From Jiangella sp. DSM 45060 (GTDB taxonomy: Bacteria > Actinomycetota > Actinomycetes > Jiangellales > Jiangellaceae): 64,000 bases of DNA. Of this stretch, positions 29,493-60,572 are shown in pieces. Location of the stretch: contig NZ_LT629771.1 of assembly GCF_900105175.1 (NCBI RefSeq), positions 2,108,001-2,172,000 on the forward strand, in the 5' to 3' direction. Numbering within the stretch: position 1 is the first letter of the stretch; every line of letters starts with the position of its first letter. The notes beneath the pieces are model-generated. The model ran no database searches, had not been told where the DNA came from, and worked only from the letters and a program-made list of their open reading frames with translations. The translations under genes were made by a program, and so were the position numbers.

Positions 29493-33245
<3,753 letters not shown>

Positions 33246-33317: not shown

Positions 33318-36300
33318 TCAGTCGAGCGCGTACGCCCGCAGCACGTCCTGCTCGATCCGGTTGCCGTCCCGGTCCCAGGCCTCCACCCGCAGCGACAGGT
33401 GCGACGCGGCGGCGGGGATGCGGTTGACCACGGCCCGGAACGTCGCGTCGCCGCGGGGCAGCACGCGGGCCGGCTGCCAGGAGGCGCCGTCGTCGAAGGA
33501 GAGGGAGACGGTGGCGCCGGAGACGGGCGCGGTCGCCGAGCCGGGCTGGTGACCCACCGCGACGTCGACGAAGTGGGCGCCGGGCTTGGCCGCGACGTTC
33601 AGGAGCGACACGTCGACGTCGTACGAGAGGGTCAGCAGCGGCAGCGCCGTCGGCGAATCGACCGGCGCCGATCCCACCGTCCACGCCGTCGACGTCGAGG
33701 TCGACGCGAGCCACCACGGCGCCGACCGTGCCACGTCCAGTTCGACCCGCAGCGACGACGGCGCCGACGGCACCGTGAACGTCCCGTCCGCGCGGCCGCC
33801 TGACGCCACCAACGCACCGTCCGCGAACAGCCGGAACGACGGGGTGTCGACGCCCGGCACCGCCGTGCCCCAGTGCCCGGAGCCGTCCGTCCACTCCTGC
33901 AGCCGCAGCGTCACGTCGTCACCCGACCGGTACGCCGCCGAGTCCACCGCCCCGAAGTCGACCGGCAGCACCCCCGGCGCCAGCACCTGCCGGAACCACG
34001 CGTCCGACAGCGTCGTCCCCGCGGTGTACGTCCGGGGCGCCGACAGCATCGGGAAACCGAACGGATCGGCGTCGGTCGATGCGCCGTAGCCGTACTGCGC
34101 CCAGGACGTGTCGCCGCCGGACACGTACTCGATCCGCTGCTGCGGCGCGACCGTCCGGCGCAGGAAGCCGAACGAGAACGAGTCCCACGGCCGCCACTTG
34201 TGCCGCAGCTCGCCGATGCCCTGACCGGGGACGTGGCTGTGGTAGTCGACGTCGACGCGCGCCGTGTTCGAGGCGTCGACGGTGTACGACAGCGCCGGCG
34301 GCACCACGTCTTCCTCGACGAGCACGAGGTCGTAGAGGTACGGGCTCACCTTGATCGCGTCGACGGCGGCCGTCACCGGGCCCTGGTCCAGCAGCGCGAG
34401 CAGCGCCTGCCCCTCCTCGCGGGTCATCGCCATGGTCGGGACGGTGTTCGGGTCGCCGCCGATGGTCAGCGAGCCGGACACGTTGTTGAAGATCATCACC
34501 AGCTTCGCCCCGGCCGCCGCCGCGTTGTGCATCTTCTCCAGGAACGTGATCTCGCCGCGCTGGATCAGCGCGATCTTTCCCTCCACGTCCACGCCGTCGA
34601 AGTCCGACGCCCGCCCGAGCCCCGCGTACACCATCGGCAGCTCGAACGACCCGTCCAGCAGCGCCGAGTTGAACACGTACGTCGCCTCGACCGGCCGCTC
34701 GACCGGCGTCAGCGTCCGCACCTGGATCAACGGCGCGACCAGCGAGTACTGCGTGTAGTACTCGAAATCGCCGACGGTGACGGGGTCGGTCGGCGACGCG
34801 AACGCGGGCTGCGCGCCGACGGAGAACGAATGGGCGTACGACTTGCCGTCGGGGTCCGACCGCCACCACGCCAGCATGGTGTTCGTCGCCTCGACGGGAT
34901 CGGCGGTGTCGACCTCGATGGGGACGGTCCCGCGTGCGTCCAGCGTCACGGACGTGTCGCCCTCGACGGTGAACTCGGGCGCGAACACCGCCGCCGTCTC
35001 CGTCGTGAAGACGTGCGGCTCGTCGTAGGTGAACACGTAGCCCATCGCGGCGTACCGGCCCGGCGGCACCCGCAGCGTCGCCACGCCGTCGGCGAACCCG
35101 ACGCTGGTCGCGGCGAACACCGACGTGTCGTCGACGTTCACGACGTCGACCAGGCTGATGCCGGCGGCCGGGCGGCCGTCGCGGGCGATGCCGTGCACCG
35201 TGAGGTCGTAGCGCTCGGACTCCTTGTAGAAGCCCGCCGCGGTCCGCACGCTGACGCCGTCCGGCCCGGTCGCGACCAGCCAGCCGCCGTACAGGCCGTA
35301 GTCGCCGGCGGCGGGGTCGACGGTGACGGCGACGTCCGCGGTCCCGCCGGCCGGCACCGTCACCGACGACGCGCCCAGCGTCACCATGCCCGGCGCGGGC
35401 GCCGTCCCGTCCTCGTCTGCCAGCGACAGATCGAGCGCCAGCGTGACGGGGGAGGCGCCGGCGTTCCGATACGTGACGGTACGCATCACCCGTGCGGCGT
35501 CGTCCTGCGGGTACGGGAAGTAGCCGGCGTCGAGCGGCCCGGTAGTCGCGAACACCTGCTGCGACGTGGCGCGGGCGAGGTCGACGCGGCCGGTGCCCTG
35601 CTCGTAGACGGTGAGCGCCGCGTTCGGCGCGGTGGTGGACGCGAGCGCCGCCTTGAGATCCGGCCCGGCCCAGTCCGGCCGCTGCTGCGCCAGCAGCGCC
35701 GCCGCGCCCGCGACGTGCGGCGTCGCCATCGAGGTGCCGTCGAGAGCGAGGTAGTCGTCGCCGACCGGGGTGCCGATGACGGCGCCCGCGGCCCGCGCCG
35801 CGACGATGCCGACGCCCGGCGCCGTCACGTCCGGCTTGAGCGCGAAGTCGCCGGCCCGCGGCCCGCGCGACGAGAACCCGGCCAGCGCGTCCTGTTTGTC
35901 GACGGCGCCGACGGTGAGGGCGCTGGTCGCCGCGCCGGGCGTCGTCACGGTGCCGTCGCCGGGGCCGTCGTTGCCGGCCGCGATGACGAACAGCGCGTCC
36001 GACTCCGCGCTGAGCCGGTCGACCGCCTGGCTGGCCGGGTCGGTGCCATCGGTGTAGCCGCCGCGCACGCCCAGGCTGAGGTTGACGACGTCCGCTCCGT
36101 TCGCGACCGCCCACTCCATCCCGGCGATGACCTCGGACATCGGCCCGGAGCCGGCGTCGTCGAGCACCTTGACGTTGAGCAGGTCGGCCTCGTACGCGAT
36201 GCCGCGGCGCTGCCCGTCCGACGCGGCGCCCGTCCCGGCGACGATCGACGCGACGTGCGTGCCGTGGCCGAACCGGTCGGTCGTGCTGTCCGAGACGCTG

Positions 36301-37082
36301 AAGTTCGCCTCGGCGACGACCTTGCCGGTGAGGTCCGGGTGGGTGGAGTCGATGCCGGTGTCGAGGACGGCGACCGTGACGCCGTCGCCGGTGAACCCGG
36401 CGGCCCACGCGTCCGGCGCCCCGATCTGCGGCGCGCTGTCCTCGTCGACGGCGGTCATGGTCTGGTCCAGCCAGATCTTCTCGACGCCGGCCAGCGGGTC
36501 GGCGGCCCGGGCGGCGGGCGGCGCGTCCAGCGGAGCGGCGCCGGTCAGCGCGTCGGCCAGCGCCGCGGCGGCGGACTTGTCGACGTCCGCGGCGACCGCG
36601 CCGATCGACTCCAGCGTGTCCGTGGCCGTCACGGCGGGCAGCGCCGGCGCCGCAGCCCGGCCGCGCGCGGCGGCGGACTCCACGATGACCGGCAGCACGT
36701 CGCTGCTCGCGTCGTCGTAGCCCTGCTCGATCAACGTCGTCACGTCGAACAGCGAGCGGTCCAGCAGCTCCGGGACCAGCGGCGCGACGTCGGCCGGCAC
36801 GACGTACAGGTGACCGTCCAGCTCCTGCTCGTGGAAGCCGGGGATGGCGCCGTTCGCCCTGGCCGCGGGCTCGACGGTGGCCGCCTGGCGGCCGTCCGGC
36901 GCGGTGGTGACGTGGATGCGGTCACCGGTGATCAGCGTGACGGTGACCCCGCCGTCCGTCCCGGCGAGGGGCGGGGACGACCCCGCCGGGACGGACGGCT
37001 CGGCGGTCGCGGCAGGGATCCCCTGCACGACCAGTCCGGTGAGGACGACGGCGGCCGCGGCCGCTCTCCAGTGTCTGCGCAA
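33318..37082 (-). CDS. Secreted S8 (subtilisin) family serine peptidase, copy 2
   Basis: 1,254 residues from a TTG at 37082, with GGAGG 9 bases upstream. Signal peptide residues 1-27 (RRHWRAAAAAVVLTGLVV, Ala-x-Ala). Propeptide, then the catalytic domain with Asp in AVLDTGID (~240), His in FGHGTHVAS (~275), AAGNDG, and Ser in GTSMATPHVAG (~448). The C-terminus has Ig-like modules and a PA domain (FDGVDVEGKIALIQRGEITF...) near 810-880. It is about the same length and order as copy 1, so the two are paralogues. Divergent from its own HTH regulator across 154 bp. Secreted protease; substrate unknown. Confidence 0.92.
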   Translation of the reverse strand: MRRHWRAAAAAVVLTGLVVQGIPAATAEPSVPAGSSPPLAGTDGGVTVTLITGDRIHVTTAPDGRQAATVEPAARANGAIPGFHEQELDGHLYVVPADVAPLVPELLDRSLFDVTTLIEQGYDDASSDVLPVIVESAAARGRAAAPALPAVTATDTLESIGAVAADVDKSAAAALADALTGAAPLDAPPAARAADPLAGVEKIWLDQTMTAVDEDSAPQIGAPDAWAAGFTGDGVTVAVLDTGIDSTHPDLTGKVVAEANFSVSDSTTDRFGHGTHVASIVAGTGAASDGQRRGIAYEADLLNVKVLDDAGSGPMSEVIAGMEWAVANGADVVNLSLGVRGGYTDGTDPASQAVDRLSAESDALFVIAAGNDGPGDGTVTTPGAATSALTVGAVDKQDALAGFSSRGPRAGDFALKPDVTAPGVGIVAARAAGAVIGTPVGDDYLALDGTSMATPHVAGAAALLAQQRPDWAGPDLKAALASTTAPNAALTVYEQGTGRVDLARATSQQVFATTGPLDAGYFPYPQDDAARVMRTVTYRNAGASPVTLALDLSLADEDGTAPAPGMVTLGASSVTVPAGGTADVAVTVDPAAGDYGLYGGWLVATGPDGVSVRTAAGFYKESERYDLTVHGIARDGRPAAGISLVDVVNVDDTSVFAATSVGFADGVATLRVPPGRYAAMGYVFTYDEPHVFTTETAAVFAPEFTVEGDTSVTLDARGTVPIEVDTADPVEATNTMLAWWRSDPDGKSYAHSFSVGAQPAFASPTDPVTVGDFEYYTQYSLVAPLIQVRTLTPVERPVEATYVFNSALLDGSFELPMVYAGLGRASDFDGVDVEGKIALIQRGEITFLEKMHNAAAAGAKLVMIFNNVSGSLTIGGDPNTVPTMAMTREEGQALLALLDQGPVTAAVDAIKVSPYLYDLVLVEEDVVPPALSYTVDASNTARVDVDYHSHVPGQGIGELRHKWRPWDSFSFGFLRRTVAPQQRIEYVSGGDTSWAQYGYGASTDADPFGFPMLSAPRTYTAGTTLSDAWFRQVLAPGVLPVDFGAVDSAAYRSGDDVTLRLQEWTDGSGHWGTAVPGVDTPSFRLFADGALVASGGRADGTFTVPSAPSSLRVELDVARSAPWWLASTSTSTAWTVGSAPVDSPTALPLLTLSYDVDVSLLNVAAKPGAHFVDVAVGHQPGSATAPVSGATVSLSFDDGASWQPARVLPRGDATFRAVVNRIPAAASHLSLRVEAWDRDGNRIEQDVLRAYALD

Positions 37083-56986: not shown

Positions 56987-57771
56987 TGGCGACGAAGACC
57001 CGCCGGCCGCTCATGGCCGGCAACTGGAAGATGAACCTCAACCACCTCGAGGCCATCGCGCTGGTGCAGAAGCTCGCCTTCTCGCTCAACGACGACGACC
57101 TCGAGAAGGTCGAGGTGGCGGTGCTGCCGCCGTTCACCGACCTGCGCTCGGTGCAGACGCTGATCGACGCCGATCGCTACAACATCGCCTTCGGCGCGCA
57201 GGACCTCTCCCAGCACGCCTCCGGCGCCTACACCGGCGACATCTCCGGCGCCATGCTGGCGAAGCTGGGCTGCACGTACGTCACCGTCGGCCACTCCGAG
57301 CGGCGCGAGTACCACGGCGAGACCGACCAGCTGGTGGCGGCGAAGATCAAGGCGGCCTATCAGCACGAGCTGACGCCGATCCTGTGCGTCGGCGAGCCGC
57401 TCGAGGTCCGTCAGGAGGGCCGGCACGTCGAGCACACGCTGGCGCAGCTCGACGGTGCGCTCGAGGGCCTGGGCGCGGAGCAGGCGGCGAGCATCGTCGT
57501 CGCGTACGAGCCGGTCTGGGCCATCGGCACCGGCGAGGTCGCCACGCCCGACGACGCGCAGGAGCTGGCCGCGGCCATCCGCGAGCGGCTGGCGAAGCTG
57601 TACAGCGCCGAGCTGGCGGCGGGCGTGCGCATCCTCTACGGCGGCTCGGTGAAGGCGGCGAACGTCAAGCCGATCATGGAGCAGCCCGACGTCGACGGCG
57701 CGCTGGTCGGCGGCGCGAGCATCAACGCCGACGAGTTCGCGCTGATCGCCCGGTACCACCGCAACCCCTGA
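56986..57771 (+). CDS. tpiA: Triosephosphate isomerase
   Basis: 261 residues. NWKMN near 13 (catalytic Lys), VGHSERR near 102 (catalytic His), [11 protein letters not shown] near 172 (catalytic Glu and loop 6) and [10 protein letters not shown] near 218. It interconverts DHAP and glyceraldehyde-3-phosphate. The ATG overlaps the pgk stop. A hairpin follows. Confidence 0.98.
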
Positions 57772-57783
57772 GCAGGACCATCG

Positions 57784-57827
57784 TGTCCCCGTCGTCCGGC
57801 CCGTCGCATCGGCCGGGGGCGGGGACA
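57784..57827 (+). terminator. Hairpin after tpiA
   Basis: TGTCCCCG (57784-57791) pairs with CGGGGACA (57820-57827), with an inner CCGGCC/GGCCGG pair. It sits 12 bases after the tpiA stop and before secG. Confidence 0.65.
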
Positions 57828-57943
57828 TGATCATTCACAGCGACCAGGTACCATTCGGCACGACAGGCCCGAACGCGTAGTCTTGGACCGTGCGCCCGGC
57901 GCTCGCCGGCCCCGCCGATCCGGAAGGACGAAGGCACACCACC

Positions 57944-58174
57944 GTGGAACTGGCATTCTCGATCCTGCTGGTCGCGACCAGCGCGTTGCTGATCCTGCTG
58001 GTGCTCATGCACAAGGGCAAGGGCGGCGGGCTGTCCGACATGTTCGGTGGCGGGGTGTCCTCCTCATTGGGTGGGTCCTCGGTGGCCGAGCGCAACCTCG
58101 ACCGCCTCACGGTCGCGCTCGGCCTGGTCTGGGCCGCTGCCATCATCGCGCTCGGCCTGCTGAACGCCAGCTAG
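57944..58174 (+). CDS. secG: Preprotein translocase subunit SecG
   Basis: 76 residues from GTG 57944. Two TM helices (about 3-21 and 53-73) joined by the conserved cytoplasmic loop HKGKGGGLSDMFGGGVSSSLGGSSVAERNLDRLT. It is a small subunit of the SecYEG export channel. The longer open frame to 57890 lacks family similarity. Conserved position after tpiA in actinobacteria. Confidence 0.95.
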   Translation: MELAFSILLVATSALLILLVLMHKGKGGGLSDMFGGGVSSSLGGSSVAERNLDRLTVALGLVWAAAIIALGLLNAS

Positions 58175-58195
58175 CAACGTCAGGGAGGACGCACC

Positions 58196-58537
58196 GTGGT
58201 CGGAGGCAACGCGATCCGTGGCAGCCGGGTGGGCGCCGGACCCATGGGCGAGGCAGAACGCGGCGATTCCGCACCACGCCGCAAGGTGACGTACTACTGC
58301 GAGCACGGACACGAGAGCTCGCCCAGCTTCGCCGCCGAGGCCGCCATCCCTGAGTCCTGGGACTGCATCCGCTGCGGGCTGCCGGCCAGTCAGGACCGCG
58401 AGCACCCGCCGGCCGCGCCGCGCACCGAGCCGTACAAGACGCACCTCGCGTACGTGAAGGAGCGGCGCAGCGACGAAGACGGCGCCGCCATCCTCGAAGA
58501 GGCCCTGCAGGCGCTGCGCAAGCGCCGTTCCCTCTGA
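58196..58537 (+). CDS. rbpA: RNA polymerase-binding protein RbpA
   Basis: 113 residues from GTG 58196 with GGGAGGA 6 bases upstream. The zinc-binding-like core YYCEHGHESSPSFAAEAAIPESWDCIRCGLPA (35-65) and the C-terminal sigma-interaction region (TEPYKTHLAYVKERRS) are those of the actinobacterial RbpA, which stabilises sigma-A holoenzyme and open complexes. Its stop codon is followed directly by the 160-bp inverted-repeat element. Confidence 0.96.
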   Translation: MVGGNAIRGSRVGAGPMGEAERGDSAPRRKVTYYCEHGHESSPSFAAEAAIPESWDCIRCGLPASQDREHPPAAPRTEPYKTHLAYVKERRSDEDGAAILEEALQALRKRRSL

Positions 58538-58697
58538 GGGCGTGTCTCCCGGGTCCGTGGCCTACTGCGCGACGCCCAGGCGGCGCCTCGCTGCGTTCTC
58601 GTCAGTCGCCATAGGCACCGCTATGTCTCCTTCCTCGGCCTTGCGAGGCATCCACCTGGACGCCGCTCGCTACGGCCGAGACCCGGGAGCCACACCC
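58538..58697. repeat. 160-bp MITE-like element with 18-bp terminal inverted repeats
   Basis: Ends GGGCGTGTCTCCCGGGTC (58538-58555) and GACCCGGGAGCCACACCC (58680-58697) match as inverted repeats at 16 of 18. The interior is also partly palindromic (GCCCAGGCGG.../...CCACCTGGAC; AAGGAGACATAGCGG on the minus strand). It carries no coding capacity of its own. It begins at the base after the rbpA stop and its right end lies inside the 3' end of the WYL gene. Confidence 0.7.
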
Positions 58698-59638
58698 TGG
58701 TTCTGCTCCAGGAACGCCCGGGCTGCGCGACGCATGTCGTCGCGCAGCTCACGTGGTTCCAGCACCACCACGTCGCCGGCCAGTCCGAGTAGGTACACGC
58801 GCGTCTCGAGCGCCGACTCGAACGTCATGGCCACCTCCTGCCAGCCGTCGCCGTCCGGTTCCGACACGGTGTCGACGACGGCGTTGCGGGCCCAGCGCAG
58901 CCGGGTGGCGGCGTACCCGCGCACGCGCAACCGGACCGGGTAGCGGCGCAGCCCGGCGAAGTAGCGCTCGCCGCTGTCGTGCCAGTGCGCGGCGAGGTCG
59001 AAGCCGGGCGGACGCCGGAACCGCTCGCTCGTGTGCTCCGCGTGCGCGATGCGCCCGACCCGGTAGGTGCGGTAGTCGTCGTCCTTGCGGGCGACGAGGT
59101 ACCAGGACCGCTTCTTCGCCACCAGCCCCAGCGGCTCGACGCTGACGGCGGCGGGCGCGCTGCCGTAGCGCACCAGCACCCGGGTGTCGTTCCACACCGC
59201 CCGCCGCAGCACCGCCAGCCACGGCGACGGCTCGCGCGCCTCCATCCAGTCGGCGTGGTCGACCAGGACCCGTTCGCGGGCGAGGTCGGCCTGCTCGCGG
59301 GCGTGCGCCGGCACCGTGGCGAGCAGCTTCGCCTCGGCCGTCCCCGCGGCGGCGTCGAGCCCGAGGTCGGCCAGCACGTGCGCCGTCGACGCGACGAACA
59401 GCGCGGCGGTCTCGGCGGGGGAGAGGCCGGTCAGCCGGGTGCGGTAGTCGGCCGCCAGCGACCAGCCGCCGGCCCGGCCGCGGTCGGCGTAGACGGGGAA
59501 CCCGGCCGCGCTGAGCGCGTCGAGGTCGCGCTGCACCGTGCGCGTCGACACCTCCAGCCGCCGGGCCAGCTCGCCCGCCGTCAGCCGGCCGTGCGTCTGC
59601 AGCAGCAGGACGACCTGGACGAGGCGTTCGGCGCGCAT
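58670..59638 (-). CDS. YafY-type WYL-domain transcriptional regulator
   Basis: 322 residues from ATG 59638. N-terminal HTH_11 winged helix (RLVQVVLLLQTHGRLTAGELARRLEVSTRTVQRDLDALSAAG), central WYL domain (about 145-210, with SWYLVARKDDDYRTYRVGRI) and the WCX-type C-terminal extension. WYL domains sense ligands, often nucleic acids or nucleotides. PafB/PafC are two-WYL-protein damage regulators, but this single YafY-like protein is not evidently one of them. The last eight residues and the TAG stop are supplied by the MITE-like element. Divergent from a DinB-domain gene across 40 bp containing a clean palindrome. Confidence 0.88.
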   Translation of the reverse strand: MRAERLVQVVLLLQTHGRLTAGELARRLEVSTRTVQRDLDALSAAGFPVYADRGRAGGWSLAADYRTRLTGLSPAETAALFVASTAHVLADLGLDAAAGTAEAKLLATVPAHAREQADLARERVLVDHADWMEAREPSPWLAVLRRAVWNDTRVLVRYGSAPAAVSVEPLGLVAKKRSWYLVARKDDDYRTYRVGRIAHAEHTSERFRRPPGFDLAAHWHDSGERYFAGLRRYPVRLRVRGYAATRLRWARNAVVDTVSEPDGDGWQEVAMTFESALETRVYLLGLAGDVVVLEPRELRDDMRRAARAFLEQNQGVAPGSRP

Positions 59639-59642
59639 CTCT

Positions 59643-59669
59643 CTAATATGACAGACGGTGTCCTATTAG
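59643..59669. promoter_or_regulatory. 27-bp palindromic operator between the WYL regulator and DinB gene
   Basis: CTAATATGACA (59643-59653), GACGG spacer, TGTCCTATTAG (59659-59669): arms complementary at 10 of 11. It fills most of the 40-bp divergent gap and is markedly AT-richer than its surroundings. Probably the WYL regulator's own operator, controlling both genes. Confidence 0.65.
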
Positions 59670-59678
59670 GGTCCTACG

Positions 59679-60572
59679 GTGGTCGATATGTGGAGTGCCG
59701 ATCTGCTCGACCAGCTCGAGTTCTACTGGAACGTCCATTTCCGGCCGCGGCTGGCCGGCCTGACCGACGACGAGTACCTGTGGGAGCCGGCGGAGGGCGC
59801 GTGGAGCCTGCGGCCCGGCCCGGGCGGCGCACTGGACCTCGAGTCCGTCCAGCCCGAGCCGCCGCTGCCGCCCGTCACGACCATCGCCTGGCGCGCCATG
59901 CACGTCGGACGCGACGTGCTCGGCAAGCGGGCGCGGGCGTTCTTCGACCCTGACGCGGCCGACGCCGACATGTACTCCGCGCTGCACTGGCCGGACGGGT
60001 TGCCGGCGGCGGCGGACGGGGCGCTGGCGCTGCTGGACGAGGCGTACGAGCTGTGGCGGTCCGGGGTCGCGGCCCTGGACGACGAGACGATGCTGCGGCC
60101 GCTGGGGCCGCGCGGCGGGCCGTACGCGGACGACTCGATGGCCAAGCTCGTGCTGCACGTGAACCGGGAGGTCATGGCGCACGGCGCGGAGATCTGCCTG
60201 CTGCGCGACCTGTACCGGGCGCGGACGGACCAGCGGGACCCCGTCGTCGCCGCGGCGTTGCGTGGCGACGCGGGCGCCGTAGCGGCGGCGCTGGGGGACG
60301 GCGCCGCCGGCGTGCGGCCGTCGCTGGCCGCCGAGGCCGCCGGACTACACCACTGGGACGTCGTGCGGGCGCTGGCCGCGGCCGGCGCGCCGGTGGACGG
60401 TGCGCTGCACTACGCGGCCGGCGCGGGCGCGCTGGACGTGGTGAAGCTGCTGGTGGAACGCGGTGCGGACGTGGCGGCGAAGGACGATCGGTTCCAGCTG
60501 GACCCGGCCGGCTGGGCCGACTTCTTCCAGCACCCCGACGTCGCGGCCTACCTCCGCTCCGTCACCGGCTAG
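59679..60572 (+). CDS. DinB-like domain plus ankyrin-repeat protein
   Basis: 297 residues from GTG 59679 (AGGG 7 bases upstream; ATG 59688 also possible). The N-terminal ~185 residues are a DinB/YfiT-type four-helix domain (ADLLDQLEFYWNVHFRPRLAGLTDDEYLWEPAEGAWSLRP; a later VNREVMAHGAEICLLRDLY helix carries likely metal His). Residues ~190-295 are ankyrin-like repeats (DPVVAAALRGDAGAVAAALGDGAA..., DVVKLLVERGADVAAKD). YafY-type regulators often sit divergent from DinB-type genes. Substrate unknown. The stop overlaps that of the convergent small gene. Confidence 0.8.
   Translation: MVDMWSADLLDQLEFYWNVHFRPRLAGLTDDEYLWEPAEGAWSLRPGPGGALDLESVQPEPPLPPVTTIAWRAMHVGRDVLGKRARAFFDPDAADADMYSALHWPDGLPAAADGALALLDEAYELWRSGVAALDDETMLRPLGPRGGPYADDSMAKLVLHVNREVMAHGAEICLLRDLYRARTDQRDPVVAAALRGDAGAVAAALGDGAAGVRPSLAAEAAGLHHWDVVRALAAAGAPVDGALHYAAGAGALDVVKLLVERGADVAAKDDRFQLDPAGWADFFQHPDVAAYLRSVTG

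Follow-up and report, generated by a model that had tools for sequence, protein, structure and literature searches.

We are fairly confident that the 160-bp repeat between rbpA and a convergent regulator gene is a non-autonomous MITE, most likely mobilised in trans by an IS427-type transposase of the IS5 family at a CTAG lying at gene ends, and that the regulator takes its C-terminal tail from it, probably after a loss of the junction stop. Its copies in the host and related genomes, the empty sites in congeners and the insertion sequences with similar ends are described below, together with the wider family to which its central part belongs.

The element and its copies

The window, that is, the whole stretch of DNA analysed, comprises 64,000 nucleotides (G000:C1:2108001-2172000) within the 7.49-Mb single-contig host genome. 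The element occupies positions 58538-58697, with no strand assigned, and forms an imperfect palindrome between rbpA (58196-58537, plus strand; Pfam PF13397), which encodes an RNA polymerase-binding protein, and the convergent gene for an HTH-WYL-WCX transcriptional regulator of 322 residues (58670-59638, minus strand; PF08279, PF13280 and PF25583). Pfam matches at the locus were to RbpA, SecG and this regulator, and no transposase gene is present in the 160 bp of the element. The left terminal inverted repeat (TIR), GGGCGTGTCTCCCGGGTC, lies at 58538-58555 on the plus strand, and the right one, GGGTGTGGCTCCCGGGTC in its minus-strand reading, at 58680-58697; the subfamily TIR is GGGTGTGTCTCCC(GGGTC). 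The two 18-bp repeats match at 16 positions, and longer arms of 47 nt match at 33. The original prediction of a 160-bp MITE-like element was correct in its coordinates and in the figure for the terminal repeats, which re-measurement reproduced; it also rightly placed the first base (58538) directly after the TGA stop of rbpA (58535-58537). The central part (58566-58673, plus strand) is a core hairpin common to elements with other TIRs in other actinobacterial genera, as judged by our covariance model R1, whose match in the host is G000:C1:2166566-2166673, and by comparison of arms and cores.

The search for further copies that had been suggested with the original prediction yielded many, in the host as well as in congeners. 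At least 17 full-length copies are present in the host genome with 89-100% identity over the whole length, a lower bound given that the best 40 of 111 candidates were scored, and this repetition is far beyond chance. Full-length copies also occur in at least six of the 11 congeners (G004, G005, G008, G009, G010 and G011), where the best 14 candidates per genome were scored. Shorter forms of about 34-91 bp are found in the host, most of them with both ends and a missing centre. Such short forms (L018, L019, L020, L021, L024, L064 and L068), in which for the most part both TIRs are retained and the centre is gone, may have arisen from the palindrome by deletion. The core of the window element can also be aligned with the core of a second MITE subfamily of the host (L023). 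In the draft genome G011, seven copies on contigs C96, C100, C114, C117, C129 and C142 (for example, L037) share equal best scores, which suggests a recent burst; the same draft, however, yielded no PF13340 transposase.

The window contains other repeats as well. Long inverted repeats of 411, 298 and 68 nt with 72-87% identity connect positions 30095-30889 and 35644-36444, and probably reflect two related genes in opposite orientation. At 1895-2171, GACGGCGCC-rich repeats recur with a spacing of 21 nt and are probably coding.

Target choice, gene ends and the regulator tail

To identify empty sites, the joined flanks of 21 host copies were searched in 12 genomes of the genus and then aligned. 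An empty congener site was obtained for 19 of these copies, with none fetched for L016 and L021. A TA target fits 11 of the 19 empty sites by eye, mostly within CTAG: the fit is clean in seven cases (L003, L008, L011, L013, L014, L017 and L019), and in four others one flank is altered (L002, L004, L009 and L015). At the remaining eight sites, including that in the window, there is no clean TA duplication, and either substitutions and indels mask it or another target was used. These alignments suggest that the preferred target is CTAG with its TA duplicated, and CTAG or TA flanks are seen at many sister copies.

The window site is free of the element in all seven congeners in which it was fetched (of 11), and reads CTCTA(G/A) in five of them. 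In four of the seven (G001, G005, G007 and G008) a single CTAG contains the stop codons of both rbpA and the WYL gene; the two stops overlap in TTAG in G004, and are 1 nt and 14 nt apart in G011 and G003, respectively. In the host, the flanks of the element are CTCTGA and TGG, an imperfect version of CTA...TAG.

We collected the CTAG sites outside the element in the window and in the flanks of 42 copies, namely 17 from the host and 25 from G004, G008, G009, G010 and G011 (L034 was excluded, and at least L011 and L205 represent one inherited insertion). There were 37 such sites, eight of them in the window, and they comprised 15 called stops, 16 intergenic and six coding positions. CTAG is scarce in this high-GC DNA and is found chiefly at stops or between genes; therefore, an element that seeks CTAG will often land at gene ends. 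By the gene calls used here, which come from a crude GC3-based caller, a gene stop lies at the edge of or inside 25 of the 42 copies, and on both sides in nine. Altogether 34 gene ends were located at or in an element. In 24 of them the stop is a TAG composed of the target TA and the G of the element, so that insertion mostly keeps the stop; three are TGA codons at the left edge, five carry the tail GV(S/A)PGSRP, and two lie elsewhere inside.

The window copy belongs to the tail-bearing class. The WYL reading frame ends in ...EQNQ-GVAPGSRP-TAG, where the last Gln codon, CAG in the host, straddles the element junction; the next 27 bases of the element stay in frame and end in TAG (tail and stop, 58670-58696 on the minus strand; TAG at 58670-58672). 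As was originally proposed, the final residues and the stop of the regulator are therefore supplied by the other end of the element. The seven congeneric orthologues fetched have neither element nor tail, and their C-termini read QN in three cases and QNA, QNG, QNEG and, in G003, HHSG in the others. Judged against these orthologues, the GVAPGSRP tail appears to be new in the host lineage. The proposal that an insertion probably rewrote the C-terminus of the regulator gains support from this absence and from the other copies of the element.

An insertion as such would be expected to leave the stop intact, since TAG is rebuilt when the first G of the element follows the duplicated TA. The WYL codon at this place in the window copy is CAG, so that it probably took, in addition, either a loss of the junction stop or an insertion that was imperfect; a stop loss would, as we infer, have followed the insertion. 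Such a tail arises where the junction stop was lost or where the target was no stop. It is found, with TAG 27 nt inside, in five of the 42 copies, always at the right end of the element. Among the tail copies, at L203 the tail belongs to a stretch of 514 residues that contains a carboxypeptidase-regulatory-like domain, and at L012 and L209 to short ORFs of uncertain status that are perhaps spurious.

The tail is presumably translated as part of the regulator. That it is not produced, the true protein being shorter or the gene decaying, we regard as extremely unlikely. In favour of this possibility, the tail lies outside the WCX domain, which stops at residue 309 of 322, ahead of the element-derived residues (Pfam); against it, no earlier stop interrupts the frame, which leads through EQN-Q into the element, and the C-terminal part of the regulator that was compared retains 70-85% identity to its seven congeneric counterparts.

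Several other genes end within related copies. A gene for a sigma-70 region 2 protein at L009 (1635-1835, minus strand) is apparently truncated by the MITE to 66 residues and, as one of the five tail copies, ends in GVSPGSRP. At L004 (1585-3162, minus strand), the ORF of a family 2 glycosyltransferase runs 76 nt into the MITE, which provides its last residues and its stop. An ORF resembling, by eye, a response regulator owes its last residues (...RDPGDTP) and its stop to a lone right-end remnant at about position 3741 of L061 (G000:C1:718740).

MITEs at gene ends that extend C-termini are already known (PMC5896051, PMC2229807). According to the available text on Coxiella burnetii, QMITE1 and QMITE2 are located at gene 3' ends, where they overlap or extend C-termini, and in one strain the final 33 residues of enhC presumably come from a MITE, whereas another strain has a stop ahead of the same insert; the reason for the 3'-end preference is there called unknown (PMC5896051). 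The window element is similar in its position at gene 3' ends and in the extended C-terminus, a likeness of description. In contrast to the QMITEs as described there, a reason for the preference can be offered here, namely the targeting of CTAG together with the rebuilding of TAG. The available text on ERIC, Correia and RPE describes small palindromic mobile repeats, some of them fused in frame to genes (PMC2229807). The window element shares these traits, and its centre is found across many genera with differing ends. No mention of actino, stop codon or CTAG was found in a review of prokaryotic MITEs (PMC10969869), and our literature search, whose coverage left out most subscription papers, returned none that we recognised as describing this family.

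Candidate transposases and alternative explanations

Two sets of insertion sequences are candidate partners. The congener G001 has five copies of a 992-bp IS with TIR GGGTGTGTCTCCCATATC and TA at both ends; this TIR is identical to the consensus end of the window subfamily at 15 of 18 positions, and the one copy tested (L154) contains DUF4096 and DDE domains. The host itself has five IS5-family elements of 1,019 bp, each with a DUF4096 ORF, a DDE ORF and CTAG flanks, whose TIR, GGGAGTGTCTGACGGATC, is identical to the end of the second MITE subfamily (L023) at 17 of 18 positions. Both host L148 and congener L154 match PF13340 together with PF01609/PF13586 and have TA at both ends. Assignment of these candidates to the IS427 group is based on the ORF pair and the TA ends, with no tree. 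As far as the available text describes it, some members of this group of the IS5 family have two overlapping ORFs, and most of the Paracoccus members listed are 832-865 bp long, with 2-bp duplications and short imperfect repeats (PMC3281130). The candidates resemble them in having two ORFs, here DUF4096 and DDE, and in the TA ends, at a length of 992-1,019 bp, whereas the window MITE lacks a transposase and has only its outer end in common with the candidate-partner IS.

The partner that we infer is accordingly a type of transposase and no specific element. No IS with the exact TIR of the window element was found in the host, where TIR-paired IS5 copies differ in the inner TIR. A host scan with the 13-base TIR at up to two mismatches gave 132 places, and pairs among the matches listed had MITE or sub-MITE spacing, in addition to orphan ends. 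Fourteen regions of the host were fetched and 13 of them scanned for the TIR; the three orphan-TIR regions read for ORFs contained no recognised transposase. In six congeners, a scan with an exact 14-mer ending in CCCA (CCCGGG ends fall outside it) revealed no autonomous copy and only pairs at MITE or sub-MITE spacing and orphans. The MITE-rich genomes G004, G008 and G011 (the latter two being drafts) yielded no PF13340 gene, and paired GGGNGTGTCT-type ends were seen at none of the PF13340 loci that were fetched from G005, G009 and G010. The genome with the best-matching IS, G001, had no full-length copy of the window subfamily among the best 14 candidates scored. A derivation of the element core from an IS interior was rejected, with no blastn match at E<=1e-3 in 48 IS loci.

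The IS630/Tc1-mariner family also duplicates TA within CTAG. Movement of the element by such a transposase would fit the TA duplication and the CTAG preference equally well, yet the host genome, the only one searched for it, has no match to DDE_3 (PF13358), while both the host and G001 possess IS5-family elements that share the outer TIR and are flanked by TA. We therefore disfavour an IS630 partner and consider it improbable. An IS630 partner at TA targets has been proposed for RUP of Streptococcus pneumoniae, which the available text presents as a 107-bp non-autonomous element that inserts at TA and has ends matching an IS from that species (PMC2229807). RUP is like the window element in being non-autonomous, in its TA insertion and in its IS-matching ends, and unlike it in its proposed partner, IS630-Spn1.

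It is similarly improbable, in our estimate, that the repeat is retained as a structural element at gene ends, a terminator or an mRNA-stability hairpin, with its mobile origin secondary. The gene stops called at or inside 25 of the 42 copies would agree with such a role, but a gene-end location is already expected from the CTAG preference. The element also folds stably (z-scores of -4.3 as RNA and -2.9 as DNA), and the core stems show paired changes and a covariation score above shuffled and slid controls; no intrinsic terminator, however, was called at the element by a simple scan. Furthermore, the empty congener sites for 19 of 21 host copies, the TA duplication at many of them and the IS with matching ends all argue for mobility. 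Identity with a known RNA was dismissed, as no Rfam covariance model matched at E<=1 in window positions 57700-59700. Among six related loci, two Rfam matches were obtained at E<=0.1, both outside the element. Near a related element at L038 (359-428, minus strand), there is a cobalamin riboswitch match above the gathering score.

Under the IS427-type reading that we prefer, the outer GGGTGTGTCTCCC repeat would be what the transposase recognises, and the favoured target would be CTAG, with its TA duplicated. Given that CTAG is located mainly at stops and between genes, the element would accumulate at gene 3' ends. In congeners the convergent genes rbpA and WYL have stops that are adjacent or overlap, and an insertion there would be nearly silent, since the target TA and the terminal G of the element would restore TAG on both strands. 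In the host lineage, the junction codon CAG would then allow in-frame reading of 27 nt to the internal TAG and thereby add GVAPGSRP.

A shared core with differing arms

The core model R1 has 108 positions and was built from 20 elements. At E<=0.001 it has matches in 40 of 148 genomes of the class, spread over 20 of 81 genera; the E-values are rough, and nine of the 40 matched genomes had contributed sequences to the model. Core matches per genome reached at least 26, which is the number of candidates scored. The core hairpin of the window was observed in many actinobacterial genera with differing ends (loci L038-L048, L176-L191, L222-L241 and L260-L263). By blastn, the core was found in 14 of 72,556 plasmid records, all from Streptomyces, and in no phage record. 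A strict pattern scan of named genomes matched one contig, from Phytoactinopolyspora alkaliphila.

The consensus fold of the core has 14 pairs, of which five have both sides changed with pairing kept. Its covariation score of 0.218 compares with 0.097 for shuffled alignments (reached by none of 500) and at most 0.044 for slid ones, all such scores being inflated by the relatedness of the sequences; 23 of 500 shuffles reach five double-changed pairs, and 62 of 500 reach the observed further pair types. Similarity is also retained in two flanking strands, around TGCGTTNTCGTC and CTCCTCCTCCGCCTTGC, which do not pair fully. A coding role of the core was rejected: several frames are open in most cores (in the best case, 41 of 46), but indels in the centre shift the frame between subgroups.

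The arms behave differently. Across 35 elements (of 36 named, one being left out for its short arms), the mean identity of a left arm is 75% to the right arm of the same element and 55% to the left arms of other elements, with 49% after shuffling, and the cores of the same elements are 76% identical. Eight copies within a single genome, G054, gave corresponding values of 77% for own arms, 56% for other arms and 78% for cores. Pairing of arms was assessed in 45 elements (46 named, one dropped), among them several sister copies from the same genome. The two arms of an element pair with each other in 40 of the 45; after shuffling they do so in 0-1 of 45, and after swapping between elements in 95 of 400, so that some end types are shared. 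CTAG is present in an outer arm of 30 of the 45 elements, compared with 15% by shuffling, and in both arms of 15. Element length, measurable from paired ends in 42 of 46, has a median of 164 and a range of 143-197.

MITEs are usually described as keeping their ends, with an interior that is free to vary. The pattern here appears reversed, with the centre kept and the ends differing, a contrast that is partly ascertained in that the elements were found by core similarity, which favours similar cores, the arms were searched within the host genus only, and no trees were used. The simplest reading of these comparisons would be that the ends follow fast-changing transposases and that something keeps the core; some of the similarity between cores could be due to horizontal spread. 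PF13340 was found in seven of 16 core-bearing genomes of other genera searched (six above the cut-off), and was not found in six core-rich genomes (G028, G031, G054, G071, G087 and G124), where other transposases are therefore involved or PF13340 was missed.

It is possible, and we put it forward tentatively as rather less than an even chance, that these elements form a class-wide actinobacterial family in which a structured core of about 108 nt is under selection and would be the true replicating unit, its arms being repeatedly replaced to suit the available transposase, even within one genome. Such a family would be built the opposite way to ordinary MITEs. The core, with its two conserved, incompletely paired strands between paired stems, would then perhaps serve as a site for a host protein or a transposase co-factor, or else act as a signal, in the form of structured RNA or single-strand DNA, by which many transposases could be used. 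That the centre of a MITE family is found in one genus after another, with ends that vary, raises the question of what role this centre has. For the MITE in the window, the choice of target and the terminal G that rebuilds TAG would provide a concrete reason why such elements are found at gene ends, as insertion there is nearly harmless. A single stop loss afterwards would hand the protein a ready-made tail, the same eight residues at five of 42 copies.
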